Shown here: in pieces, positions 3,609 to 24,113 of the stretch
How positions within the stretch are numbered: position 1 is the first letter of the stretch
Layout of the letters: every line of letters begins with the position of its first letter
NCBI GenBank assembly: GCA_949292215.1
Contig: CASEYW010000031.1
Location: 1-64,000, forward strand
Source of the DNA: an uncultured bacterium
GTDB taxonomy: Bacteria; Verrucomicrobiota; Lentisphaeria; Victivallales; UBA1829
Reading direction: 5' to 3'
Length of the DNA: 64,000 bases
The notes under the pieces: generated by a model
Told to the model about the DNA's origin: nothing
The model's database searches: none
What the model saw: only the letters and a program-made list of their open reading frames with translations
Program-made: the position numbers and the translations under genes

Positions 3609-4055
3609 ATGTTGAAAAACTTGTTTGATCGAAGCGATAGAGCCATTACCTGCATGGGGATATTGGGATTTGCGTTTTCTGCTCCTCTGCTTTGGCTTAT
3701 GATCAAAGTCGGAGTTGGAACCGTTGTGGCAATCCCCAGTATGGCAAGTAACGTCAAGGATTCTTCTTTGGGGCTTACAATGCTGTTTATCGGAGCTGTT
3801 GCCTCTCTGTTCATCATTGCAGGAGTATGGGGATTCTTCGGCAGGAAAGCCGGTATCATCGTCAGCATCATATTGGCTTGTGTGTACTGGAAACTGGTTT
3901 TCATGCTCTTGTTCCTGTTGCTGATCCCGATTCTTCCGCTGGTTTGCCTGGGGTCTGTCGTGTTACTGATTATATCCGCTGTCAGATATTGTTTACGCAA
4001 GGCGGAGGAGCGGTCAGACTCACCAAGCCTTTGCAGAAAATACAGCAAGAAGTGA
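3609..4055 (+). CDS. Small multi-pass membrane protein
   Basis: 148 residues with about four hydrophobic segments: residues 14-38, 57-80, 83-102 and 100-123, and a basic C-terminal tail. No family is recognised. The pattern (short cytosolic N-terminus with a DRSDRAI segment, then paired helices) is similar in kind to the two FFKGL proteins downstream but sequence identity is not evident. The 23-base gap to the next gene indicates one operon. Confidence 0.75.
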   Translation: MLKNLFDRSDRAITCMGILGFAFSAPLLWLMIKVGVGTVVAIPSMASNVKDSSLGLTMLFIGAVASLFIIAGVWGFFGRKAGIIVSIILACVYWKLVFMLLFLLLIPILPLVCLGSVVLLIISAVRYCLRKAEERSDSPSLCRKYSKK

Positions 4056-4078
4056 TTAAATAGAGGAGAAACTTTCCT

Positions 4079-4543
4079 ATGGAAAATAAATTTTTCAAAG
4101 GGCTGGATCTGGCAATGATTCCGAGCGGCATTGTCGGAATTATTTCAATTGGCTTTATGCTTATCATCGGCATTGGTTTCCTTGGGGTGTTTCACCTTAT
4201 GTTATTTGAATCAATATTTGAGGGGAAAACAAATATTTATTGCTTGCTGGTTGTTGCTTTTTTTGATTCTACGATCTTCCTTTTTCTGTGGGGAGTGTTT
4301 GGAAAAAAAGCGATTGCGGTATTTCTCGTACTGGTTCTGCTGGTACTCGGAATATGGAATATTGGTGCGGTATTCAAGGTTGGTATTCCGCTGGTCTGTA
4401 CCATTGTATTCATCTGTGCTGTAATCGGAAGCATTGTAAAGGCGACTAAAGGAAATTCAACAGGAAACGATACCGTAAGCAGCTCATCACCGAAAAGCTC
4501 TTCCATGAAAAGCAGTCATAGTGATCTGGCGGATAAATTCTGA
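4079..4543 (+). CDS. FFKGL-type small membrane protein, copy 1
   Basis: 154 residues. The N-terminus reads FFKGLDLAMIPSGIV, followed by four hydrophobic segments (about residues 15-40, 55-78, 80-98 and 100-121) and a Ser/Lys-rich soluble tail. The opening, an internal IIG, and an H-x-x-x-FESIF segment recur in the protein at 7075-7719. The two are paralogues flanking the channel-RyR gene. AGGAG precedes the ATG. Function is unknown; an auxiliary subunit of the channel-like protein is a reasonable guess from position only. Confidence 0.75.
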   Translation: MENKFFKGLDLAMIPSGIVGIISIGFMLIIGIGFLGVFHLMLFESIFEGKTNIYCLLVVAFFDSTIFLFLWGVFGKKAIAVFLVLVLLVLGIWNIGAVFKVGIPLVCTIVFICAVIGSIVKATKGNSTGNDTVSSSSPKSSSMKSSHSDLADKF

Positions 4544-4564
4544 ACGTTTTCAGCAGGAAAGACG

Positions 4565-7045
4565 ATGAAAAAATATTTTGATAAAATCATTCTGAATCGG
4601 ATGTGGATTCAATTATTGCTGGCACTTCTGGTTGTCGGCTTGATCGCCATCATCGCAACTCCTGTGGCTCAATACTACATTGCGAAGAATCCGTTGGATC
4701 AAAATTTCCACTCCTCCTGGCTGTGGGGACTGCTCCATCTCTGCGATGGAGGATTCATCGGACAAACGATTTCATCGGTTCATGATCCGAACTCAACCGG
4801 GCACAGCAATTTCGTTATTTTTTCGGCGTTTTTTCTGTGGATCTGCGGAGCGGTATTATTCTGTTTCATCACCAGCGTCATGAGCAATGCTTTTGAAGTC
4901 AGAAAGACACTGATCGCCACCGGACAGGTTCGATACAGCTTCAAAGGAAATCACGGCGTGGTGATCGGCTGGGATTCGCATGGGGCAACCGCCATTGCCG
5001 CAATGCAGGAAATTTATGAAATCAAAGAGTTCGTGATTTTGTCCGCTACCCCATCCGAAGAGATCAGGGAGGATTTGAACAATCTGTTTTCTCCGCAGGA
5101 AATGGCGAAGATATTTATTCATAAGGGGAATGTATTCGACAAGGACGAATTGAAAAAGCTGTGTCCGTGGAAAGCCTCCGTTGTCATCATCTTGGGGGAT
5201 CAGAATGACAATAACAACGACGGGGGCAATCACCGGATTTTCTCTCTGCTGGAAAATATGAAAGTGGATTCCCCGCAACCATTTCCAACACCTTGTTTTA
5301 TTGATGTCGGCAATCCGTATTCTCTGGTTCAGGACGAGTTCAATCTTCAAGCCATGCTGAGAAGTCCGAAGGCTAAAATCAAATATATTCCGCTCGTGCT
5401 GAATTTTGCCAAATACAGCGTCAATGAGGTACTGACTTCAATGAACGCCATTCAATCCTACAACACCGGAAGACGGACAAATGTGTACGAACCGAGGTAT
5501 CGCCCATTGGCGTTTCGGAAGAATCCGGAGGCAACCCATGTTCATATCGTCATCGCCGATTTCGATGATCTGGCGCACATGTTCATCATTCAGGCGATCA
5601 AGGTGTTGGCTCCATCCAAAGAACCGCATAAAATCACCATATTCACGGAAAAGACACAGGAGATTAAAAAGTTCAGGAATTTTTATCACTTGGAAGAGTT
5701 GCACGGCATCCGTTTTAACTTTCATACCGGAGAAATCACCGCACCGGAAAACCGGAAGGTTTTGACGGAGATTGTTCGGGATATTTCCGCAAGCGTCACG
5801 CTGCTGATCGCCAATCCGGTTGCCGATTCCGCTTTGGAGACGTTCAATCGTCTTCCCTGTGAACTGCACTTTGAGAATATTCATATTCTGATCGAACAGC
5901 GGATTATGAGCCAATGCGTAAAGCCCACCTATCAATTGCGGAGGTTCGGTTATGCGACTGTCGATTACGTCGGAATGATCGACCGCTTTTATTATTCACT
6001 TGCCAGCCGTGAGAAAATGGCATGGCTGATGAATGCGCTGGATTTGGAAGATGCCAAGCTGTTTGATCATTGGCGGGTCAAAAACTCTGCAACGGAAAGA
6101 GAAGATATTCGTGGATTCGTGGATTCAATTCTGGAAAAACTCTATGGCTTGAATCTGTTTTTTAACAAAGTTGACAACGAATCGGATGTACAGCCGATTA
6201 CCGATTTGAAGCACTATCAGGAAGAACTTGCCCAAGCTGAACATGTGCGTTGGGTCAATACTCGAATCCTCTCCGGTTATCATTACGAACCGGAAAGCAA
6301 TGACCGTTACTTTGCCTCTTCCAAGCTGGTAAACTGGAATGACCTGTCTTCCGATGACCGGAAGCAATATCATGATTCCATTGAGCAGATCATTCCCATC
6401 GTCAACCGGATTTTCAATACGGGGAACAATCCGTACACATTTTTTCCGCAACGCTTCAAACTCGTTTTGGGGATCGTTGATGAGGGTTATTCCAAACAAC
6501 GGCATACAGCTTGGGGTGATGAGTCGAATTATTATTTTCAGACGATCATCCGTGAAGTCAGACGGTTGAACATATCTACGGTCAACAAGAAAAACAATTC
6601 CAGAAATTACCCCTCGTTGGCTGTTTGTTGCAGTCTGGCGGAGGAATGGAGTGAAATGTTTGTGATCATGGCAATGCGGGAACAGATTCCGGTAATTGCG
6701 ATACTTCCAGAGCCGCCGGAACAGTATCAGTTCCGTTTTGCCGAAGGAAACGCCAGAGAACGCTTCCGGCAACGGTTGCGTTATGTTCTGACGTATTATG
6801 TGATTCCACAGGATATTCCGGCAGATCGGCGGGAACAGGCGGTTCGGGAACTCATCGTAAAACATTCGGATCAGGTGTGGAGCTATAAGGAGTTCTCCCA
6901 TATCGGGGATTGGAATTTGGAGTTTGCGGAAGAAACGCCGTTTTTACCGAAGCGCAATTGCTCTGCATTCTTCAGAATCGATGTTGAGAACGAGAAGGTA
7001 TTAGTCCCGTTCTCTCCGATGGCACAGGCTTTACAACAGGAATAA
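4565..7045 (+). CDS. CASTOR/POLLUX-like channel protein with RCK-like, RyR and C-terminal Rossmann-like domains
   Basis: 826 residues. TM1 lies at 14-38. A re-entrant-like segment at 51-66 (W-L-W-G-L-L-H-L-C-D-G-G) follows, then TM2 at 83-105. Next come basic residues leading to K-G-N-H-G-V-V-I-G-W (127-136). This order matches CASTOR/POLLUX-type channels, where a pore is followed by an NH-x-x-x-x-GW Rossmann (RCK) domain. A second Rossmann-like unit begins near 325. Residues 552-613 fit a RyR domain: EHVRWVNTRILSGYHY, then KLVNWNDLSSDDRKQ. The C-terminal part from 631 (VLGIVDEGYS ... LAEEWSEMF ... IPVIAILPEPPEQY) looks like a nucleotide-binding fold of SLOG/TIR-like shape. I infer a membrane channel gated by ligand binding. 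The domain calls come from reading motifs; the C-terminal one is least certain. Confidence 0.8.
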   Translation: MKKYFDKIILNRMWIQLLLALLVVGLIAIIATPVAQYYIAKNPLDQNFHSSWLWGLLHLCDGGFIGQTISSVHDPNSTGHSNFVIFSAFFLWICGAVLFCFITSVMSNAFEVRKTLIATGQVRYSFKGNHGVVIGWDSHGATAIAAMQEIYEIKEFVILSATPSEEIREDLNNLFSPQEMAKIFIHKGNVFDKDELKKLCPWKASVVIILGDQNDNNNDGGNHRIFSLLENMKVDSPQPFPTPCFIDVGNPYSLVQDEFNLQAMLRSPKAKIKYIPLVLNFAKYSVNEVLTSMNAIQSYNTGRRTNVYEPRYRPLAFRKNPEATHVHIVIADFDDLAHMFIIQAIKVLAPSKEPHKITIFTEKTQEIKKFRNFYHLEELHGIRFNFHTGEITAPENRKVLTEIVRDISASVTLLIANPVADSALETFNRLPCELHFENIHILIEQRIMSQCVKPTYQLRRFGYATVDYVGMIDRFYYSLASREKMAWLMNALDLEDAKLFDHWRVKNSATEREDIRGFVDSILEKLYGLNLFFNKVDNESDVQPITDLKHYQEELAQAEHVRWVNTRILSGYHYEPESNDRYFASSKLVNWNDLSSDDRKQYHDSIEQIIPIVNRIFNTGNNPYTFFPQRFKLVLGIVDEGYSKQRHTAWGDESNYYFQTIIREVRRLNISTVNKKNNSRNYPSLAVCCSLAEEWSEMFVIMAMREQIPVIAILPEPPEQYQFRFAEGNARERFRQRLRYVLTYYVIPQDIPADRREQAVRELIVKHSDQVWSYKEFSHIGDWNLEFAEETPFLPKRNCSAFFRIDVENEKVLVPFSPMAQALQQE

Positions 7046-7074
7046 AATAATATCAAACGACAGGAGAATTTATT

Positions 7075-7719
7075 ATGATGGATCGTTTTTTTAAAGGGCT
7101 CACCTACGCAATGATTCCCAGCGGCATTGTGATGTTGCTGATGATGGTTGCTGCGATCATTATAGGATTTGCGTTTATTATTGCAACGCACGTTGTTGCA
7201 TTTGAAAGCATGTTTCCTGCAGAAAGTATAACAACTGTTTACAGTAATTATGCACCTCCCACAGTAATGGATAATACACCTTCTCCAACATTGTATCCAT
7301 TATTCTTATGTTTGTTTATTGATATTTCAATTCTTTTGGGGATTTGTAAATTTTTTAATCTGAATATCAATGTTGCACTTGTCGTGTTTGTAATTGTGCT
7401 TTTTGCACCGATTTCCATTCCTTGTATCTTGCTTACCTACTGGCTTCAGTCAAAGGGAGAATCAATTCGGAAAATTTCGTTGAATACGTGGAAAATTGTT
7501 ATGATCGTTCTGACAATTCTTGCTGTTCTTGTGTGTGGCGCATCACTTATGATTATGGAAAAGCCAGACCCGGAGATGATGTTTGTTTTTCCTATAATCG
7601 TTATCTCAAACATCATATTGATAATCCACCTTTCTCAAAGAGCTAAAACAAAAGGCTCTGGAACAACATCAACGTCGAGTAAAAACAGTTCCGTTTTTAA
7701 AGGTATAAGTGATGATTAA
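7075..7719 (+). CDS. FFKGL-type small membrane protein, copy 2
   Basis: 214 residues, a paralogue of the 4079-4543 product. It begins RFFKGLTYAMIPSGIV and has the same H-x-x-x-FESMF feature after the first helix. It differs by an extracytoplasmic-looking loop of about 40 residues after helix 1 and a second pair of helices (about residues 105-124 and 140-187), ending in a Ser/Lys tail. AGGAG precedes the ATG by eight bases. It follows the channel-RyR gene by 29 bases in the same operon. Confidence 0.75.
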   Translation: MMDRFFKGLTYAMIPSGIVMLLMMVAAIIIGFAFIIATHVVAFESMFPAESITTVYSNYAPPTVMDNTPSPTLYPLFLCLFIDISILLGICKFFNLNINVALVVFVIVLFAPISIPCILLTYWLQSKGESIRKISLNTWKIVMIVLTILAVLVCGASLMIMEKPDPEMMFVFPIIVISNIILIIHLSQRAKTKGSGTTSTSSKNSSVFKGISDD

Positions 7720-7751
7720 AATAATAAAATTTGATAACGGAGGAATTGGAT

Positions 7752-9161
7752 ATGCCGGAAGGTCTTTATAAAGCAGTTGAGGCGCATAGCTGGAATTGGG
7801 TCAGAGGCGCTATTGAGAATGGTTATTCTGATGCCAATGAACGTTCGGAACATGATTGGACACCTCTGCATCGTGCGGTCAGTTGCAACTATGAACCGGA
7901 GTGGATAGAATTTCTGCTGGCACTTGGGGCTGATCCAAACGCCAGAGAAGAATCTTCGCCGGAAACCCACGGAACAACTCACTATACTGGAGCTACTCCG
8001 TTCCATTATGTTCACTCCGTTGAACATGCCCGGCTTCTTCTTGATGCCGGAGTTCAAATTAACATACAGGACGATTCCGGTTGGACATTGCTTCATCATG
8101 CAGCGTTTCATGGAAATACAGAGCTGGTCAAATTCCTGCTGGATTCAGGAGCTCACATCAATATTCCGAATCAAACCGGGATTACTCCGCTTCATGCAGG
8201 AGTGAACGGCTGGAAATATGGAAGCGCCGAAACTGTCAAACAGATGATTGAGTACGGAAAAGACCAGCTTCTCACTGAAGCTCAAGCGGATCTTACTGCC
8301 AGGGATCAACAAGGAAAGACTCTTCTGCATTTTGCCGCAGGGCAGAATGTCGATGCGGTCTGTTATTTTCTGATATTGGGGCTGGCTGTTAACGCCAAGG
8401 ATGATAGCGGTCGGACGGCTTTATACTATGCCGCCGATGCTGAAATCATGAAAACGCTGGTAAAAGCCGGAGGGGATATCTCTATTGTCGATCAGAATGG
8501 AGTATCGCTTCTGGAATGGTTCATGACAGGAAATGTGAATTTGGAAATCGTCAAATTTCTGTATGAACAAGGCGCTCAATATCCCGATTTTTCTTATCCC
8601 TGCGATATTGTGTGTTCGGAGCACTTCCCGGTAAATAACAAGCGTTGGGATTTGTTTCGCTATCTGGTGGAAACGAAAAAGACAGATTTCATCTGTCCGC
8701 TTTGCGATAAGGGATCGGTTCTGATTGTTGCAGCTAAGCAGCAGAACTGGGAAATAGTAAAATTCCTGTTGCCCCAAATTTCCGAACACAATAAGAGCAT
8801 TGTCGATATTAAGGACATTGACGGCAATAGTGTTTTGTTCTTGGCGATCAAGAGTAAAGACACTGGAATAGTGCGGAATCTCATTGAGTTCGGAGCTGAG
8901 ATCAAGGGGAATGATGAATTTCTTCTGGATCTGGCTAAAAACGACTCAGATTTTTTAATATTTCTTCTGGAACATGGAGTGGATACCAATGCATCTTCCG
9001 GGGCTGATTCCATTCTTGCCGAATGGGTGGAAGACGGAAATGTGGCAGGAGTCAGAATCCTGAAAAAATACGGAGCAAGAATTACGCCTGAATTGCTGGA
9101 AAAAGCTGATACTGACGAGATGAAACAACTGCTCCGTAGCTTTTTAGCAGAGAAAGAATGA
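7752..9161 (+). CDS. Ankyrin repeat protein, 469 residues
   Basis: Start at 7752, eight bases after ACGGAGG; the upstream frame needs a TTG at 7731. Repeats are plain: DWTPLHRAVS, GWTLLHHAAFHGNTELVKFLLDSGAHIN, GITPLHAGV, GKTLLHFAAGQ, GRTALYYAA. Degenerate repeats fill the C-terminal half. No signal peptide or membrane segment is visible, so it should act in the cytoplasm as a protein-binding scaffold or inhibitor. It sits 32 bases after the membrane protein gene and three bases before the next gene, so it belongs to the same operon. Confidence 0.9.
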   Translation: MPEGLYKAVEAHSWNWVRGAIENGYSDANERSEHDWTPLHRAVSCNYEPEWIEFLLALGADPNAREESSPETHGTTHYTGATPFHYVHSVEHARLLLDAGVQINIQDDSGWTLLHHAAFHGNTELVKFLLDSGAHINIPNQTGITPLHAGVNGWKYGSAETVKQMIEYGKDQLLTEAQADLTARDQQGKTLLHFAAGQNVDAVCYFLILGLAVNAKDDSGRTALYYAADAEIMKTLVKAGGDISIVDQNGVSLLEWFMTGNVNLEIVKFLYEQGAQYPDFSYPCDIVCSEHFPVNNKRWDLFRYLVETKKTDFICPLCDKGSVLIVAAKQQNWEIVKFLLPQISEHNKSIVDIKDIDGNSVLFLAIKSKDTGIVRNLIEFGAEIKGNDEFLLDLAKNDSDFLIFLLEHGVDTNASSGADSILAEWVEDGNVAGVRILKKYGARITPELLEKADTDEMKQLLRSFLAEKE

Positions 9162-9164
9162 TCT

Positions 9165-10223
9165 ATGAATACAATTATTGAGGCTCTTGAATCGGGAAAG
9201 CTGATTGCATGGGAAAAATTTGACGGTGATATGTGGTTTGATGCACTGTTTTATCACTATTCCCACCAATATGCACTTGAACCATGCAATGTTCACAATG
9301 GTTGGGAGAAGCTGGAAGGTCTTCAATGGAGGCTGTTGCTTGAGCATTATCCTGAATTACTGGAAAAATGTTGCTGGGAAAAACTCGAAGCAGAGGATTG
9401 GGGAAGTTTATTACAGGCGGTTCCGAAAGCCGCTTCATATTGTGACCAGTATAATGGCTGGGAAAAAATGGATGGTGCAATTCTGGCAACGGTCATACAG
9501 CTCCAGCCTCAACTCATCAGCCATTGTGATTTTTCCAAGTTTTCCGTGAATGACTGGAAGGAGTTTCTGGCATCTCTGCCGCAATACGTTGACCGTTGTG
9601 ATTTCAAAAAGTTTTCGGTAAAAGATTGGATTGAGTTCTTCTCTGCGTTGCCCTCTCCTGATGTTCCGTATAATTGGGAACATTTTCAACATAGATGCGC
9701 AGAAGGTGGAGCCCAAATGCTTTCTGCCTCCTATGCGAACCTCTGTGATAAATGGGATGAATTTCAATCGATGAATTGGGCTATTCTGCTTCGTTCTCAA
9801 CCGCAGTTCGCAGATCGCTGCGACAAATGGGATCAGATGCAGCCTCTGGATTGGGCGCAGCTGATCCGCTATCAGCCTCAATTCGCTGATCGTTGTGATA
9901 AGTGGGATCAGTTCGATGGTGACTGCTGGCAGCAGGTGTTGATTTATCAGCCCCAGTTTGGGAATCGTTGCAAAGACTGGAGTTGGCTGGAAACGCTTGA
10001 GGGGTATGATTGGGAATATGTGGTGGAAAAGCAGTTGGCTTTCCTCCCCAAGTGTGATCAATACAATGGCTGGAGTAAGTTTTCTTCCTATCACTGGAAA
10101 ATCTTTCTGAAAAAATATCCCTGCTTTTGGGATCGCTATGAAAAATTCGCTTCGGTGAAATTATCGCCGGAGGAACTCGCCTACATTCAAGAAAAGACAC
10201 CTGAAGAAGCCGAGAACAGCTAA
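9165..10223 (+). CDS. Trp-rich 25-residue tandem repeat protein
   Basis: 352 residues made almost wholly of degenerate repeats. The clearest three units are about 25 residues each, of the form CDKWDQ-x5-DW-x2-L-I-x-Y-QPQFADR, near residues 193-270. Earlier units show the same spacing with Phe or Glu-Lys replacing Asp-Lys (GWEKLEGLQWRLLL, CDFSKFSVNDW). I know this type of repeat from gut bacterial proteins but no function for it. The regular W-x-x-(L/F) and QPQ pattern suggests a helical solenoid. It follows the ankyrin gene by three bases, so the two are translationally coupled. Confidence 0.8.
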   Translation: MNTIIEALESGKLIAWEKFDGDMWFDALFYHYSHQYALEPCNVHNGWEKLEGLQWRLLLEHYPELLEKCCWEKLEAEDWGSLLQAVPKAASYCDQYNGWEKMDGAILATVIQLQPQLISHCDFSKFSVNDWKEFLASLPQYVDRCDFKKFSVKDWIEFFSALPSPDVPYNWEHFQHRCAEGGAQMLSASYANLCDKWDEFQSMNWAILLRSQPQFADRCDKWDQMQPLDWAQLIRYQPQFADRCDKWDQFDGDCWQQVLIYQPQFGNRCKDWSWLETLEGYDWEYVVEKQLAFLPKCDQYNGWSKFSSYHWKIFLKKYPCFWDRYEKFASVKLSPEELAYIQEKTPEEAENS

Positions 10224-12286: not shown

Positions 12287-14223
12287 ATGGCAAGAGCAAA
12301 AGAAAAGACAATCTGGAAGATTCTCACCCCGGAGAATGCTGAAAATATTACCTTGGAAGAAGTCAAAAATGCATTATGGGGAGAGAACCCTGATAGGGTA
12401 AATTTCGCAGACTTTTGTGGCAAGGGTACTCCCTTATGTTACGCTGTGTGTACCGGACGAATGGATATTGTCGTTATTTCGTTGAAGAACTCAAGGTAGA
12501 TATTGTAAAACCGCAGAATAATACACCCTTGCAAGTTGCGTTGAGCAAGGGTAACATGGAAATGGTAGAATATTTCTTTGAAATTGATCCTCTGATCGGC
12601 GGTAGTGATTATCAGGCAAACTGTATACGTGCAACAATTTGGGGCAGACAACTCGAAATGCTGAAATTTCTTGTTGAAACCAAGCACTTCTTCATAGGAA
12701 ATGAAAAAAATGATGAACCTTTGCGTTCTTCCGTGTGCTGTGGTTGGGAGTTCTTCAAGTATTTAATTGATCATGGAGCAGTTCCAACGGATAGAGTTGT
12801 TAAAGAGGCGGCAAATCATAGTGCAGCAGGAACAACGGATTATACAGAAAAAGATGCCGTTCGTTTCCGGATATTGAAATATTTACTGGAACAAACCGGA
12901 ATAAAATACAACCTCTATGAAGCTGTAAGAAACGCTATCTATAAGAAGAATTTGGAATGCGTAAAGTATCTTTTCTCAAAAGGAGCCTCTGTTAAAACGG
13001 AAGGAGATGAATATGGTCATCGCATTTCACTTTTATTTACAGCTGCGGATTATAATGACATCGAAATGATGAAATTCCTGATTAGCCAAGGCGCTGATAT
13101 TCACGAAAAGGATGAAAGAAACAGAAGCATTCTCGAAAATATACAGTGGAAGGATAAAAACTTATCAACTCTTAAATATATCGTCGATGACTTGAATTTT
13201 TTTGATGGATTGGAAAAAGACTGCAGTATGTGCAAATTCGAGACATTAGCACCTTTAAAATTCCTGCTCGAACATGGTTTGGCATATAGCGACAGTGAAG
13301 ATAGGGAAAATTTTAAACATGCAGTAAGGAATGGGGATTTACCTCTCGTAAAATATCTTGTGGAAGAACTCAAATTTCCTATTGATCCCATAGGCGATGT
13401 GAAACGATCTATATTGCTTGAAATTTATAGTTTAGACACACGTAACTATGAAAATTTTCTTTATTTAGTTGAAAACAGTACCTCTGTAAATGTCCAAGAT
13501 CGTATTGGGAGAAGTATATTGGACGAGGTGTTAGACCGCTGTTCAGAACGTCACTTTAGGGACATTCCGGAAAAACAAAAAGAGATCATCAAACTCTTAC
13601 TCAAAAAGGGTGCTATCCCCCCAAAAAGAATTCATAATCAAGCAATTTTAACTCTTCTTAATGAGTGTATTGCAGAACTCCAAAACGAGTTACCGCCCGA
13701 AAAGCTGCCTGCAATGACCATTGATATGCTGGAAGATGCAATGGATAATATCATGAGCGATGGACTTAAAAAAATGAAATCCTTATTGGCTCATGGGCTT
13801 CAGGTTCCGCAAGAAGTGGAAGGTATACCCACATTAGGTTTTATTGCTCAAAAAGATAAAGATAAACTGCTGAAATATTTTGTGGAAGAAAAAAACTTTG
13901 ATGTCAATTATCGTGATTCAAAGGGCAGAACTCCGTTGATTTATTTTCTGATTAAGGCAATATCTTGGGGCGGAGAAATAGATATTGAATGTTTATCCTA
14001 TTTGCTCGATCAAAAAGCTGATGTTAACTACGAAGACAAAAACGGAATTTCCGTTTTACAATACGCTTGTCTTCTTTGTCGAGAGGACAGAGTTGAAGCA
14101 ATTAAAGCCCTTATTCGACACGGAGCCAAATACCAAAAACTCCTCAGAAAAGGAAATCCATTTATCATAGAGGCGTTAAAAGAAATCAAACAGGAGAAGA
14201 AAAAATCTGCTCAGGAAAAATAA
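12287..14223 (+). pseudogene. Ankyrin repeat gene broken by a one-base frameshift
   Basis: The first frame (12287-12499) ends an ankyrin unit after TPLCYAVCTGRMDIV. The same unit continues in another frame from 12472 as RYFVEELKVDIVKPQNNTPLQVALSKGNMEMVEYF, running to 14223. Joining the two by inserting one base near 12470-12472 restores a single protein of about 645 residues with many ankyrin-type repeats (KFLLEHGLAYSD, LSYLLDQKADVNYEDKNGISVLQYA). It may be a real mutation, a sequencing error or a recoding site. No slippery heptamer is evident. A GGAGG lies 11-15 bases before the ATG at 12287. Confidence 0.8.
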
Positions 14224-19300: not shown

Positions 19301-21046
19301 TCAATCCCAAAGCCAAATTTTATAAGATGGCGTATCAAGCAATACTTTATGATCTTTACCTGTAAAATCACATGTTTTATTGAAAAAATTTATGACATTA
19401 ATAATTGTCATTTTTTTATCATTTTCAGCAATCGGCATCAAGAATGTAGTAACCATACTATATGGGATTCCTTTTGCCCTATGCTTTAATGGAATTCTTG
19501 GTAAGATAAATTCATTTCCATCAATTAAAACTATTTTTATGCCATCTGCTAAAATGACAATTTCCCTTATAGTCTCTCGCAGTAGAGAACAATATGTGTC
19601 ATTATCAAGCAATGTTTCTGTATAGTTGATTTTTTGTAATTTATTACGCAAGGCAATAAATTCAGCTTCATTATTACTTTCTTCTCTGACTTTTGCCTCC
19701 AATATTTTATTTTCCAAATCTTTTAATCGTATGGCATTTTCTTCCAACTGAGTTTTGAAGATATCTTCGCTAAGGTTGAATTTTGTTAACTGGTCATAAA
19801 GTAAGACCATTTGATTTTTTATATTATCACGATCTCTGAGTAATTCAGATTTATCAATGGCATCAATATTCTTTTTGCTATATTCATATTGCCAGAATAC
19901 AATAGAAAACAATGCTTGAAGCGTCAAAAGTAAATTACTTTCACCTTGTTCTATTCTAATTCTGCTCTCCGTACATTTTTTGTCATGCAACAGAATTGTT
20001 TTCTTACAGAAATATACGATCCCCTTGTCATTTACCATGACCAATTTGCTTCCACAATGTCCACACCGTAAATAACCAGATAGAGGCAGGAAGTGCCGTT
20101 TGGCTTTTCCTCTGACATTATATTTCTGCCGTCCGCTTTTTTCTTTTTTATCAGCCATAATCTCATTTGCTTTTTTCCATTGCAGATAATTTACAGGAGG
20201 ATTGCTCACATTAATACACTGGATAATGGAACCATTTTCACTTTTTCGCATTCCAGTGTAAGAGAGGTTACGGATAATATTGTAGATTGAACTCTCGTAG
20301 AAGCACTTACCTATAGCCAGGTGAATATACTTACTGTTCAGTGTATGTAATATTTCCGCATAAGTTTTTCCGGCAATAACAGATTCAAAAATATATCTGA
20401 CCGCTTCGGCTTTTTCTGGATCGAATGATAGTGTCTTATTTTTTTGATCCCATACTGCACCGAAAGCATTTGAAAAAGTAATGCCTTTTTCTTTTTTGGC
20501 TCGAACTACTTTAATACTCTGTTCCTTACGTTCCGTAAGTTTTTTCATTTCATAAGTTGCCAGCAACCTGTGAACAGCAATATCAATATCATCGTTGATA
20601 TAATCGATTTTGTTGTCATCTACATCAACTAATGCAACAGAGTTTTCTTTGAGTTTTGAAAGAAAATATAAATCCAGCTTTGCCAATGGTGATGGATTAC
20701 GAAAGAATCTTGTCCTTTCATATACAACAAAAAAATCAACAGCAGGAAGAAGAGTAAAGGCTTCTGCAAGATGCTTTTTATATTCTTTGCGTCCTTTGGT
20801 GCGCTGTGATTTATTCCACTTCTGCCATTCGGCATCGGTGGCAGCATACGCATGTCCCTCTATGGAATCATCATATAATTCAGAGCTCGTATTGTTATCA
20901 GAAAATTCACCAACAATTGTAATGCCGTGTTGTTCACACCATTTTCGGCAGGTTGTTAACTGATCTTCAATACTTGCACTGGTTACTTCATGTCCATAGC
21001 TCTGCCGTGCGTAAATTACAGCTTTTTTTCCGTTCAAATCCTGCAT
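19301..21046 (-). CDS. Large serine integrase
   Basis: 581 residues from the ATG at 21046, chosen because GGAGG lies about eight bases upstream. The N-terminal catalytic domain has Y-A-R-Q-S with Ser16 as the nucleophile and Y-E-R-T-R-F-F-R-N in the place of the D-R-x-x-R motif. A recombinase (PF07508-type) domain follows (IRNLSYTGMRKSENG). A zinc ribbon reads Y-L-R-C-G-H-C-G with later Cys pairs (YFCKK, KKCTES). A coiled-coil segment and C-terminal region complete the phiC31/Bxb1-like layout. The gene starts about 70 bases from the element-chromosome junction and reads inward, the normal position for an integrase next to its attachment site. Confidence 0.93.
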   Translation of the reverse strand: MQDLNGKKAVIYARQSYGHEVTSASIEDQLTTCRKWCEQHGITIVGEFSDNNTSSELYDDSIEGHAYAATDAEWQKWNKSQRTKGRKEYKKHLAEAFTLLPAVDFFVVYERTRFFRNPSPLAKLDLYFLSKLKENSVALVDVDDNKIDYINDDIDIAVHRLLATYEMKKLTERKEQSIKVVRAKKEKGITFSNAFGAVWDQKNKTLSFDPEKAEAVRYIFESVIAGKTYAEILHTLNSKYIHLAIGKCFYESSIYNIIRNLSYTGMRKSENGSIIQCINVSNPPVNYLQWKKANEIMADKKEKSGRQKYNVRGKAKRHFLPLSGYLRCGHCGSKLVMVNDKGIVYFCKKTILLHDKKCTESRIRIEQGESNLLLTLQALFSIVFWQYEYSKKNIDAIDKSELLRDRDNIKNQMVLLYDQLTKFNLSEDIFKTQLEENAIRLKDLENKILEAKVREESNNEAEFIALRNKLQKINYTETLLDNDTYCSLLRETIREIVILADGIKIVLIDGNEFILPRIPLKHRAKGIPYSMVTTFLMPIAENDKKMTIINVINFFNKTCDFTGKDHKVLLDTPSYKIWLWD

Positions 21047-21063
21047 TATTATGCCTCCATCAT

Positions 21064-21093
21064 AATTTAACTCGTTGACATTCAATTGTCAAC
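21064..21093 (-). promoter_or_regulatory. Integrase promoter with overlapping inverted repeat
   Basis: On the minus strand TTGACA (21092-21087), a 17-base spacer and TAAATT (21069-21064) form a near-consensus sigma70 promoter 18 bases before the integrase ATG. The -35 box lies in one arm of a GTTGACA/TGTCAAC inverted repeat (21074-21093). That repeat could bind a repressor or the integrase itself. Confidence 0.65.
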
Positions 21094-21122
21094 CTTTAAA
21101 ACAGTTATTTTATGATGTAATG
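21094..21122. other. Right attachment junction (attR-like)
   Basis: Element sequence gives way to the pseudopilin reading frame in this stretch. From about 21118 the frame encodes [19 protein letters not shown], whereas the codons just upstream do not encode the expected F-T-L-I-E. The exact crossover dinucleotide cannot be fixed without the left junction or an empty site. Confidence 0.65.
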
Positions 21123-21761
21123 GTCGTAATTGCAATCATTGCAATTCTTGCCGCGCTTCTTCTTCCGGCTCTGAACAAAGCCAGAGTGAAAGCCCGGACA
21201 GTTTCCTGTCTGAACAACCTCAAACAGCTCGGAATTTACATGACCATGTACCTCAATGCCAGTGACGAGTACTTTCCGACCCTGGGAGATGACGGCTCCT
21301 CTTATTACAACGACATCACAAAACGCTGGACAAGCCAGCGTTTTCTGGGAGACACATCCGGACTGCATGGTCCGCTCCAGCAGAAAGCCCCTCTCCTTGT
21401 GCGTTGCCCGAACTCTCAGAGAGAAACTGGATACATCACCTATTTTCAGCCATTGTTTCTGTTTGGAGACAGTGAAAGTGCCTGTTCCGTACCGAAACGG
21501 ATCTCGACGATGAGAGAATCCGCCAAAGCGGTCAAAGGCCGTCTCAGCGATGTAATTCTCCTCGGAGAAACCGATACATGGTGCTATCCCGCCACCAGCG
21601 GATACGGTGGTCTGCGTTCCACCTGGCAGACAACGCATACCTCGCCGATTGATCCTTTTTATTATGCCAATGCCGTTATGCTTGACGGCCGGGCGCTCAA
21701 AGCGTATCATCGAACGGGCACCAGAACCTGGAATTACTCCGCTGTCTGGATCCGCTGGTAA
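21118..21761 (+). pseudogene. Pseudopilin (prepilin-type N-terminal methylation) gene cut by the element
   Basis: The product retains the hydrophobic helix from V-V-I-A-I-I-A-I-L onward, then K-A-R and C-L-N-N-L-K-Q-L-G (the DUF1559/type II pseudopilin signature) and an L-D-G-R segment near the C-terminus. It lacks the leader peptide, the cleavage site and the F-T-L-I-E segment, which must lie at the far end of the element. Any ATG used now would give a protein that prepilin peptidase cannot process. It originally led the glycosidase operon that follows by 24 bases. Confidence 0.8.
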
Positions 21762-21785: not shown

Positions 21786-24113
21786 ATGCGGATTCATATC
21801 ATCAGTACATTTCATTATGATGTCATTTACCTTAAGGAGTACCGGAACTATCTGGAAGAGAGTCTGAAAATTCTCGACCGGGCCCTTGATCTTCTTGAGC
21901 GTGAAGCAGATTATAAATTCACCGTGGAACAGATTCTTCCTGTACGGGAATACTACAACCGTTTCCCGGCACGCCGGTCGCAGATGAAGCGCATGGCCTT
22001 GAGCGGACGCTTAAGTTTCGCTCCAGGCATGTTCGTAATGCCGGATATGAATATGGGTGGCGGAGAGACACTTTTCCGGCAGATGGAACTTGGACGGAAC
22101 TGGCTCCGGAACCACCTTGGAGTTACCGCCGACGCCTGCTGGATCGCCGATTGCTGGGGACATCACGCTCAACTCCCGCAAATGCTGTCTCAGAGCGGAT
22201 ATCGTTCCTATTTTTTCTGGAGAGGAATGAATCCGGAGTTTCAGCAGAACAACTTCCGCTGGAAGGGGATCGACGGAACGGAAATTCTCACGCACTGGCT
22301 TCCCCGCGGCTATTCCGGCATTTTTTTCCCGGAAAAACAACCGGACATCGCCAATTCCGAAGAACAGAAATTTGAAGAGGCATCCGTGGAAGAAATCATC
22401 CGGCTGGCGGAACAGGAACGTCGTTTTAGCCCATCGGAAGAGATTCTGATCTGTAACGGCGGAGACTTCCGGATGCCGCAGGAAAGTGCACCTTCCGTGT
22501 TAAGAGAAATCGGAAAAAAGAAACAATTTTCCCGGATCGGATTTTCCACCCCGTCAGAATATGCCGCCGCAGTTGCAGAAGGGGAATTACCCGTTTACGC
22601 GGGAGAATTCAATGCGCTGTTTCAGGGGACTTTTTCCACGAATATCCAGATCAAACAGGGAATCTGGCGTCACACGGCCCGGCTTCTGGCGGAAGAGATG
22701 TTCCTCGCTGTTCAGGGACAGAATTCGGAATGTCTTCAACAGCAATGGGAACTGCTTCTGAAGCTCTGTTTTCATGATACGGTATGCGGAACCATTTGCG
22801 ATGCGGCTCTGGAATCGGTTTTTTCCGATCTGAAAACCCTGGATTCGCAGAAATCTTCCGGGAATGCGGTTTTCAATCCGACAGCGCACTTCAGGCGGGA
22901 AACGCTGGAACGTCCGGATGGACACCGTATCCTTGTGGAGCTGAAACCATTTGAGATCCGTCCGCTGGAGGAGTTTCCGGAACGCGTTCCGCTTCTTCCG
23001 CAGATTCCGGAAGAGAAGATCTGTTTTCGGAACCGGTATTATGCGGTTTCGTTCCAGCGGAATGGATTCATTTCCAGTCTGACAACACCGCGCGGAACAG
23101 AATGGGTCGATGCAGCTTCCCCCTCCCCCTTCGGGGCGCTCGTGATGCAGAACGACAACGGTGACAACTGGCAGCTGTATGAAGGTCCGATTGATGGAGG
23201 CTCCGCTGCCGCTGCGTATTCCCGGAATGAACCGGATCCGCTGGAACGTCCGGGCTCTGCGGATGGCATTGTCAACCGTCAGACCTTTTATCCGAAAATC
23301 GAAGAAGTGCGGGTTCTTCAATCGCGGGATTCTCTGCAAGTTCAGCAGAAGGGACGAATCGCCTTCTGGCGCAACAGGATTTTCTTTGATTCCCTGCTGG
23401 AGTGCGACGAGGAGTCTCCGCTGATCCGCTGGAAAATCCGAATCCGTACAGAGGGGCGTCACTACCGGCTAAGAGCGGCATTTCCCACACCTCTCCGTCA
23501 TGGAGTCGTCACTCATGAAATTCCGTTTGGACTCCAGATCCGTGGAAATTCAGAATATGCTGCCGGAACGTTCTGCGACTATTCCGGCAGCACAGGAGGA
23601 ATCACGCTTTTCAACCGGGGGATTCCAGGAAACAATGTGGACCCGGATGGCGTACTGCTTCTTTCCGTCTTCCGATCCGCAGCCATGGAGTATAAATGCA
23701 AGAGCGAGTTATCGTTCCATGAGGGGAAAGAAGTGGAAGTTGAATTTGCTCTGATGGCCCGGGATGAAGCATCGCTGGAGCCGGTCATGGCGGAAGCGGA
23801 ACGGTATGCGGCACCGCCGATGCTGGTCAATGCTACAGTTCCGTTGGTGGATTTAACGAGTCTGAATCTTCCGGCGAATGTCCGTATCAGCACATTGCGT
23901 TCCGATGGGCAGTCGCTGTTTCTCCGTCTTTCTGAAGGGCTTGGCAAAGCGACCAGGCTTTCGCTTTCTCTTCCGGAAAAATTCCATTTCTGGAGAAATG
24001 CGACTGCTCTGGGCGATCCAATGGAACCGCCAGTTTCCCTTTCCGTTCCATTGGAATTGAATCTGCGTCCGTTTGAAATCAGGAATCTGCTACTGTACGG
24101 AGATATCGCATGA
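21786..24113 (+). CDS. GH38-type alpha-mannosidase-like protein
   Basis: 775 residues. The N-terminus I-H-I-I-S-T-F-H-Y-D corresponds to the zinc-binding H-x-D strand of GH38 enzymes. W-I-A-D-C-W-G-H-H-A-Q-L-P (119-131) holds the likely nucleophile Asp122, in place of the usual D-P-F-G-H-S. A helical region with H-D-T-V-C-G-T (about 330) supplies a further metal His, and the C-terminal 400 residues are beta-sandwich. There is no signal peptide, so it acts in the cytoplasm on imported mannosides. The active-site variation suggests a divergent subfamily and the exact linkage is unknown. Its stop overlaps the next ATG (ATGA). Confidence 0.8.
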   Translation: MRIHIISTFHYDVIYLKEYRNYLEESLKILDRALDLLEREADYKFTVEQILPVREYYNRFPARRSQMKRMALSGRLSFAPGMFVMPDMNMGGGETLFRQMELGRNWLRNHLGVTADACWIADCWGHHAQLPQMLSQSGYRSYFFWRGMNPEFQQNNFRWKGIDGTEILTHWLPRGYSGIFFPEKQPDIANSEEQKFEEASVEEIIRLAEQERRFSPSEEILICNGGDFRMPQESAPSVLREIGKKKQFSRIGFSTPSEYAAAVAEGELPVYAGEFNALFQGTFSTNIQIKQGIWRHTARLLAEEMFLAVQGQNSECLQQQWELLLKLCFHDTVCGTICDAALESVFSDLKTLDSQKSSGNAVFNPTAHFRRETLERPDGHRILVELKPFEIRPLEEFPERVPLLPQIPEEKICFRNRYYAVSFQRNGFISSLTTPRGTEWVDAASPSPFGALVMQNDNGDNWQLYEGPIDGGSAAAAYSRNEPDPLERPGSADGIVNRQTFYPKIEEVRVLQSRDSLQVQQKGRIAFWRNRIFFDSLLECDEESPLIRWKIRIRTEGRHYRLRAAFPTPLRHGVVTHEIPFGLQIRGNSEYAAGTFCDYSGSTGGITLFNRGIPGNNVDPDGVLLLSVFRSAAMEYKCKSELSFHEGKEVEVEFALMARDEASLEPVMAEAERYAAPPMLVNATVPLVDLTSLNLPANVRISTLRSDGQSLFLRLSEGLGKATRLSLSLPEKFHFWRNATALGDPMEPPVSLSVPLELNLRPFEIRNLLLYGDIA

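Follow-up and report, generated by a model that had tools for sequence, protein, structure and literature searches.

A divergent predicted channel of a bacterial 2TM-RCK-RyR class, with a C-terminal extension, on an integrative element of an uncultured Lentisphaeria bacterium

What does the gene at positions 4565-7045 of this contig encode, and what might its product do? The gene is an intact forward-strand ORF of 826 amino acids in the window, the whole 64,000-nucleotide stretch of DNA analysed here, and its start ATG is preceded by AGGAAAGACG. A sequence-only reading had taken the product for a mobile-element protein that joins a CASTOR/POLLUX-like pore, RCK-like domains, an RyR domain and a C-terminal Rossmann-like domain, and had proposed a ligand-gated membrane channel with a possible role in conflict or immune signalling. 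We find that the protein is no lone oddity: it belongs to a bacterial class of predicted 2TM-RCK-RyR channels, within which it is divergent and extended at the C-terminus. Relatives of this protein are linked to TIR genes, which bears on the question of function.

The channel gene belongs to a run of six forward-strand genes (3609-10223). These genes are closely spaced, with intergenic gaps of 3 to 29 bp, and they therefore probably form one operon. Small multi-TM proteins are encoded at 3609-4055, 4079-4543 and 7075-7719. The first of these genes is separated from the second by 23 bp, the second lies 21 bp 5′ of the channel gene, and the third starts 29 bp 3′ of it; the products of the second and third are paralogues (46% over 56 aa). 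The run continues with an ankyrin-repeat protein gene (7731-9161; 11 bp gap) and a gene for a degenerate repeat protein with GWEK/CDKWDQ units (9165-10223; 3 bp gap). Between 7731 and 14223, two ankyrin-repeat proteins, the GWEK/CDKWDQ repeat protein and a pentapeptide-repeat protein cluster with the channel. PADLOC gave no match for the query channel or its relatives, and we judged its ankyrin matches among the neighbouring genes to be generic repeat matches. A promoter scan of the cassette found sites no more numerous than in shuffles.

The gene resides on a mobile element, as had been proposed. A large serine recombinase gene on the reverse strand (19301-21085; PHROG integrase match 3.1e-49) occupies the right end of this element and abuts a pilin-like gene (21075-21761). 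A sister genome (G034) is syntenic at 80% nucleotide identity from window position 23253 down to 21121. Homology ends there, which places the element's right boundary at about 21120; the left end is beyond the contig edge. The channel protein has no match in three other genomes of the genus, nor elsewhere in the family sampled. We also observed that the N-terminal hydrophobic segment of the pilin-like gene (window 21120-21761) is interrupted by the element, while the corresponding sister-genome locus (L089) is syntenic and uninterrupted. A small ORF resembling serine resolvases/invertases occurs within the element (1326-1910).

The anatomy of the protein was examined with an AlphaFold model based on 11 sequences (mean pLDDT 58). 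All features below are encoded on the forward strand. Two helices, TM1 (aa 13-41; 4601-4687) and TM2 (aa 81-119; 4805-4921), flank short helices at residues 51-61 and 64-73 that may constitute a re-entrant segment. The model agrees in outline with the proposed pair of hydrophobic helices around a re-entrant-like segment, at a pLDDT of 45-67, in what is its least confident region apart from the C-terminus. On the basis of the model and the relatives' alignment, a putative pore helix and filter region spans residues 51-64 and contains W-G-L-L-H-L-C-D-G-G-F (4715-4756). The filter-like pattern W-G-L-x-x-x-x-D-G-G-F is invariant in the nearest relatives, and D61-G62-G63-F64 specifically in the two nearest.

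The filter of CASTOR reads A-D-S-G-N-H-A and its D265 is essential (PMC6697748). The query has C-D-G-G-F-I where the CASTOR family has A-D-S/A-G-N-H-A, and only the D and the G at the second position after it are common to both. Neither the query nor the 10 other aligned members contain TxGYG, although L035 has one isolated GYG; we rejected a K+ channel reading because TxGYG is absent from the 11 aligned members.

Two Rossmann units follow the membrane part. The peptide N-H-G-V-V-I-G-W at residues 129-136 (4949-4972) comes directly after TM2, confirming the placement given in the sequence-only reading. The first, RCK1-like unit (aa 127-300; 4943-5464) is modelled over residues 130-290 with a pLDDT mostly of 65-85. 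The second, RCK2-like unit (aa 325-470; 5537-5974), is modelled over residues 325-445, with a pLDDT mostly of 67-89 to about residue 440. We checked the prediction for a missing RCK fold: the two units are modelled as expected, and a Foldseek search of the PDB returns RCK channels. The leading matches are GsuK, CASTOR, DMI1 and Slo1, at 4e-6 to 1e-3. GsuK is the top match (3.8e-6) and includes NAD- and ADP-bound entries, and CASTOR is at 1.4e-5. Whole-model TM-scores are low (0.16-0.23), as one would anticipate when a multidomain monomer is modelled with confidence in some parts and not in others.

We combined the query with four relatives, L049, L056, L035 and L082, into a family profile, which was searched against PDB sequences. 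Its best match is the DMI1 gating ring (7vm8; 3e-5) and its second is CASTOR (6o6j; 6.5e-4), in alignments centred on N-H-x-x-I-x-G-W. The sequence similarity of RCK1 to DMI1 and CASTOR is not exclusive, because the same five-sequence profile matches NADPH-P450 reductases from 8e-4. The query sequence alone, without the profile, does not reach CASTOR or DMI1. The Pfam family Slo-like_RCK stays below its cut-off (E 0.006 for the whole protein, 0.001 on a piece). The CASTOR/POLLUX-like assignment is partly supported: it stands for the pore-RCK layout and for RCK1, while the CASTOR filter and the four TM helices are absent and these results do not establish membership in the family proper.

The RyR-type segment, previously placed at residues 552-613, is genuine. 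It scores above the Pfam gathering cut-off for PF02026 (29.5 versus 27.4 bits) over residues 543-611 (6191-6397), and a whole-genome PF02026 search gives the query 32.7 bits (E 3.4e-7), with no match in any of 14 control genomes. Helices are modelled at residues 548-618 with a pLDDT mostly of 76-89. In Foldseek, this part matches RyR3 Repeat12 with AMP-PCP (4e-4) and a chimera of B. thetaiotaomicron and human RyR (5e-3); the RyR3 Repeat12 entries are AMP-PCP- or ADP-bound. Against viral proteins, phage RyR-domain proteins are reached at an E of about 0.05 only, and the rest are mainly irrelevant Rossmann proteins.

Two kinds of RyR domain offer a view of the ligand pocket. Repeat12 of animal RyRs binds AMP-PCP or ADP (ATP/ADP) in a cleft that closes upon binding (PMC12627627). 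According to a 2026 preprint, phage RyR domains (RyDEP) bind or cleave TIR-made 2′/3′cADPR through H75, W78, H100 and D117 (PMC13232231). Across 19 aligned RyR domains, the equivalents of H75 and W78 are invariant and correspond to H560 and W563 in the query. The equivalents of H100 and D117, placed via motif spacing and the alignment, are S585 and Y602, which makes hydrolysis of the RyDEP type unlikely for the query. Loss of the H100 equivalent is seen in G312, G112c and G250 as well. Judging from these residues, adenine binding by the query's RyR domain is plausible and its specificity for ADP-ribose is uncertain. The query's own ligand is also uncertain, because no TIR was detected in its genome and two of the four pocket residues are lost.

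The C-terminal region (aa 620-826, about 200 residues; 6422-7042) is missing from all relatives found, and the query is the only class member found with such an extension. Its pLDDT is below 50 almost throughout in the full model and 35 when the region is folded alone. It has no Pfam match even at E 10, no PDB match and no homologue in 198 class genomes, where the best weak match is antisense to a real gene. The peptides cited for a C-terminal Rossmann-like domain are present; with a pLDDT of about 35 alone and no Pfam or PDB match, this domain is unsupported, though not refuted. We rejected SLOG, TIR and deoxyribosyltransferase-like assignments for the region, as it has no such Pfam or PDB match and the other weak class matches are due to chance. 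An hhalign comparison with TIR domains gave a probability of 0.4%.

Close relatives of the whole protein were found in neither plasmids, phages, IMG/VR nor the bacterial family, nor by a single-sequence GTDB scan. With a profile of three sequences, the search reached two MAGs of Lentisphaeria and one of Paludibacteraceae, and the nearest relatives are Lentisphaeria MAGs from goat rumen. Among 388 genomes of the phylum, 23 encode proteins with PF02026. Using protein length, TM-helix prediction and Pfam to call the class, we found 2TM-RCK-RyR channels in 12 of them (the query genome G000, G122, G244, G277, G257, G247, G331, G282, G357, G312, G112 and G250), a patchy distribution. The query, L049 and L056 are a CASTOR-like subgroup, L035 and L082 are more distant, and most others retain a scorable TrkA_N domain. 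In G244 and G277, the channel gene follows a separate RyR gene of about 95-120 aa and has an RyR-like segment of its own at its end.

RyR-TrkA_N architectures can be seen with Pfam, so we do not regard the class as categorically new. In the open literature, we found no description of the class or of its TIR linkage, and nothing on an RyR domain with TrkA or on TIR with TrkA/RCK and cADPR; such effectors may already be covered by Yirmiya et al. (2025 preprint about TIR-based systems, doi 10.64898/2025.12.03.692087, cited in PMC13232231).

A TIR gene (PF13676 match) occurs within 8 kb of the channel gene in 7 of the 12 channel genomes, and 0.12 such cases are expected by chance, given 0 to 10 TIR matches per 3-7 Mb genome. 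As a control, we compared positions by hand in 11 of the 12 genomes: none of 29 RyR-less TrkA_N genes has a TIR gene within 8 kb, versus 7 of 11 RyR channels (Fisher P 1.8e-5, or 6e-5 after dropping one of the same-genus pair G247/G331), although the sample is small and the general clustering of defence genes may partly account for the linkage. The TIR gene is adjacent on the opposite strand in G357, at 0.2 kb in G282, 0.5 kb in G247, 2.9 kb in G122, about 4 kb in G112 and about 5 kb, two genes upstream, in G331. In G277, the TIR gene overlaps the channel stop and a second one lies 2.7 kb further.

This TIR linkage of the 2TM-RCK-RyR class is new here, and some cases are tight operons. In two related genomes, the operon comprises a TIR(+DUF4062) gene, an nSTAND1 NTPase (match 7e-98) with a laminin-G-like C-terminus and a 2TM-TrkA_N-RyR channel (L043:910-9037 and L042:8317-16444); we regard it as a clean candidate for experimental tests. 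Locus L033:8648-12876 holds a separate 94-aa RyR gene, a channel with RyR at its end and, overlapping the channel stop, a TIR-TM gene; a second TIR (TPR) gene comes after these at 13800. A channel, a TIR/NPHP3-TPR protein and a DUF4062-like/WD40 protein share one strand in L046:663-9830, and L035 has a TIR_2 protein, an unannotated gene, an RyR gene and the channel. By sequence reading, the TIRs of L049, L033 and L035 retain the W-x(3-4)-E stretch, the location of the catalytic Glu in NAD-cleaving TIRs. The query genome itself has no PF13676 match, in an assembly that is about 90% complete and in which the element runs off the contig. It is the relatives, whose RyR channels show linkage to genes for TIR, nSTAND and TPR-sensor proteins, that back the proposed role in conflict or immunity, and not the query locus itself.

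RyR domains also occur in other settings. A gene cluster at L031:3548-8214 encodes an RyR protein (96 aa), a TPR-S/cyclase-like protein and a TIR-TPR protein. Just after the Paludibacteraceae RyR channel, L082:10123-11616 encodes a protein with one TM helix and, by eye, a flavodoxin/TIR-like N-terminus; it has no Pfam TIR match. Proteins encoded at L037:7126-9780, just upstream of an RyR channel gene, and at L047:8070-10763 combine a RelA/SpoT-like domain, a weak SLOG/LSDAT match and RyR in a single chain; these fusions suggest RyR sensors in other nucleotide systems. Proteins of 900-970 aa with a central AAA-like ATPase and a C-terminal RyR occur in L038, L041, L045, L047 and L050, with Pfam ATPase matches in L038, L041 and L045. 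A TIR gene adjoins the AAA-like-RyR gene in L045, and a weak TIR is present in L041. A second TrkA_N protein (590-aa frame) is found close beside the RyR channel in G250 (C111:352200-352553).

What might such a protein do? We computed its RyR membership, the similarity of its RCK1 to DMI1/CASTOR, its tandem Rossmann and 2TM anatomy, and the TIR linkage of its class. Beyond these, we propose a tetramer, a gating mechanism, a type of ligand, depolarisation and phage defence, a model that we consider about equally likely to be right or wrong. The two TM helices and the re-entrant segment would build the pore of a tetrameric cation channel, and two RCK-like units per subunit would form a cytosolic gating ring with the RyR domain below it as an adenine-nucleotide sensor. 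In relatives, the signal would probably be an ADP-ribose derivative from the neighbouring TIR protein. Nucleotide binding would close the RyR clamshell, move the ring and open the pore, and the resulting depolarisation would stop growth, as in abortive infection. The appended C-terminal region of the query may carry its signal input.

A ligand-gated membrane channel is the best reading, as originally suggested, and in GsuK, with its NAD- and ADP-bound structures, there is an earlier example of an RCK ring on which nucleotides act. We infer that nucleotide-gated channels could act as immune effectors. The channel comes from a gut-type bacterium, and its relatives lie beside genes of the type that produces ADP-ribose alarm signals, which suggests a defence in which an alarm molecule opens a channel. 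A more specific proposal, that the class consists of immune effectors opened directly by TIR-made cADPR isomers via RyR and that the query is a variant with a further input domain, is one we consider less likely than not.

Other explanations need to be weighed. The protein could be a housekeeping or stress channel of the 2TM tandem-RCK type, gated by ions, NAD or ADP in the manner of GsuK or CASTOR, in which RyR senses energy status through ATP/ADP and immunity plays no part; the TIR linkage of relatives would then reflect clustering in defence islands. Three observations agree with this: no structure ranks above GsuK in Foldseek, NAD- and ADP-bound entries included, animal Repeat12 binds ATP/ADP (PMC12627627) and no TIR is near the query. 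However, the query gene is on an integrative element and absent elsewhere in the family sampled, the distribution is patchy (12/388 genomes) and relatives have strict TIR/nSTAND/WD40 operons; we consider this explanation unlikely.

It is less probable still that the protein is no channel at all and that its TM helices merely anchor an RyR domain that binds or hydrolyses ADP-ribose signals like RyDEP, which is a glycosidase or sponge (PMC13232231). The lack of the K+ filter TxGYG and the low confidence of the modelled pore, lowest outside the C-terminus, would fit an anchor, but the 2TM and tandem RCK layout fits gated channels, the filter-like pattern is invariant in the nearest relatives, and the catalytic D117 is replaced by Y602. 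We give the least weight to a decayed or repurposed channel with a vestigial RyR, which would now receive its signal through the new C-terminal region and through operon partners, namely the small TM and ankyrin proteins. Although two of four ligand residues are lost, no relative has the roughly 200-aa extension and the genes in 3609-10223 are closely spaced, the reading frame is unbroken, the protein retains H560 and W563, and RyR scores above the Pfam cut-off. Our preferred reading is a nucleotide-gated channel effector.

Several known systems resemble this protein in part. Like the query with its predicted pore, CASTOR/POLLUX/DMI1 (6o6j, 6o7c, 7vm8; PMC6697748) have a pore followed by an N-H-x-x-(L/V)-I-x-G-W RCK1 and a tandem RCK, and they lack TVGYG and have D-x-G in the filter region. 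They have four TM helices where two are modelled in the query, which adds RyR and an extra C-terminus, and sequence similarity is limited to the N-lobe of RCK1. GsuK is a K+ channel without RyR. It is a bacterial channel with a 2TM and tandem RCK arrangement and NAD and ADP structures (4gx0, 4gx1, 4gx2), and it is the top Foldseek match; the query does not have TxGYG. Bacterial TrkA_N and RyR proteins (L040, L042, L043, L048, L051 and L037) share the domain order 2TM-RCK-RCK-like-RyR. In these, TrkA_N can still be scored and RyR is the last domain, whereas the query has a CASTOR-like RCK1 and about 200 further residues. As the query shows, mobile elements are among the carriers of the class, and its members acquire additional domains.

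Phage RyDEP shares with the query an RyR domain with H75/W78 equivalents (PMC13232231). It is soluble and acts in anti-defence, while the query is predicted to be membrane-bound and is without the H75-D117 catalytic pair. The likeness to Thoeris is that, in relatives of the query, a TIR gene is coupled to a presumed effector that contains a domain for nucleotide binding; however, Pfam and PADLOC recognise no SLOG/Sir2 or macro effector domain, and the query genome has no TIR match. If the proposal holds, gated ion channels would join the effectors driven by TIR signals.

Finally, animal RyR Repeat12 and an RyR-like protein of B. thetaiotaomicron share the PF02026 fold and the adenine-stacking motif H-x-x-W with the query. 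Compared with animal RyR, the query has one repeat per subunit, on a predicted RCK gating ring, and two changed ligand residues. Whether cADPR acts directly on ryanodine receptors is an old open question that has long been disputed. An operon that combines a TIR enzyme with a sensor NTPase and an RCK-RyR channel would offer a small purifiable system to test the cADPR-RyR link. If the more specific proposal is true, the opening of these bacterial channels by cADPR isomers would represent the prokaryotic equivalent of the link between cADPR and ryanodine receptors, and perhaps its origin.
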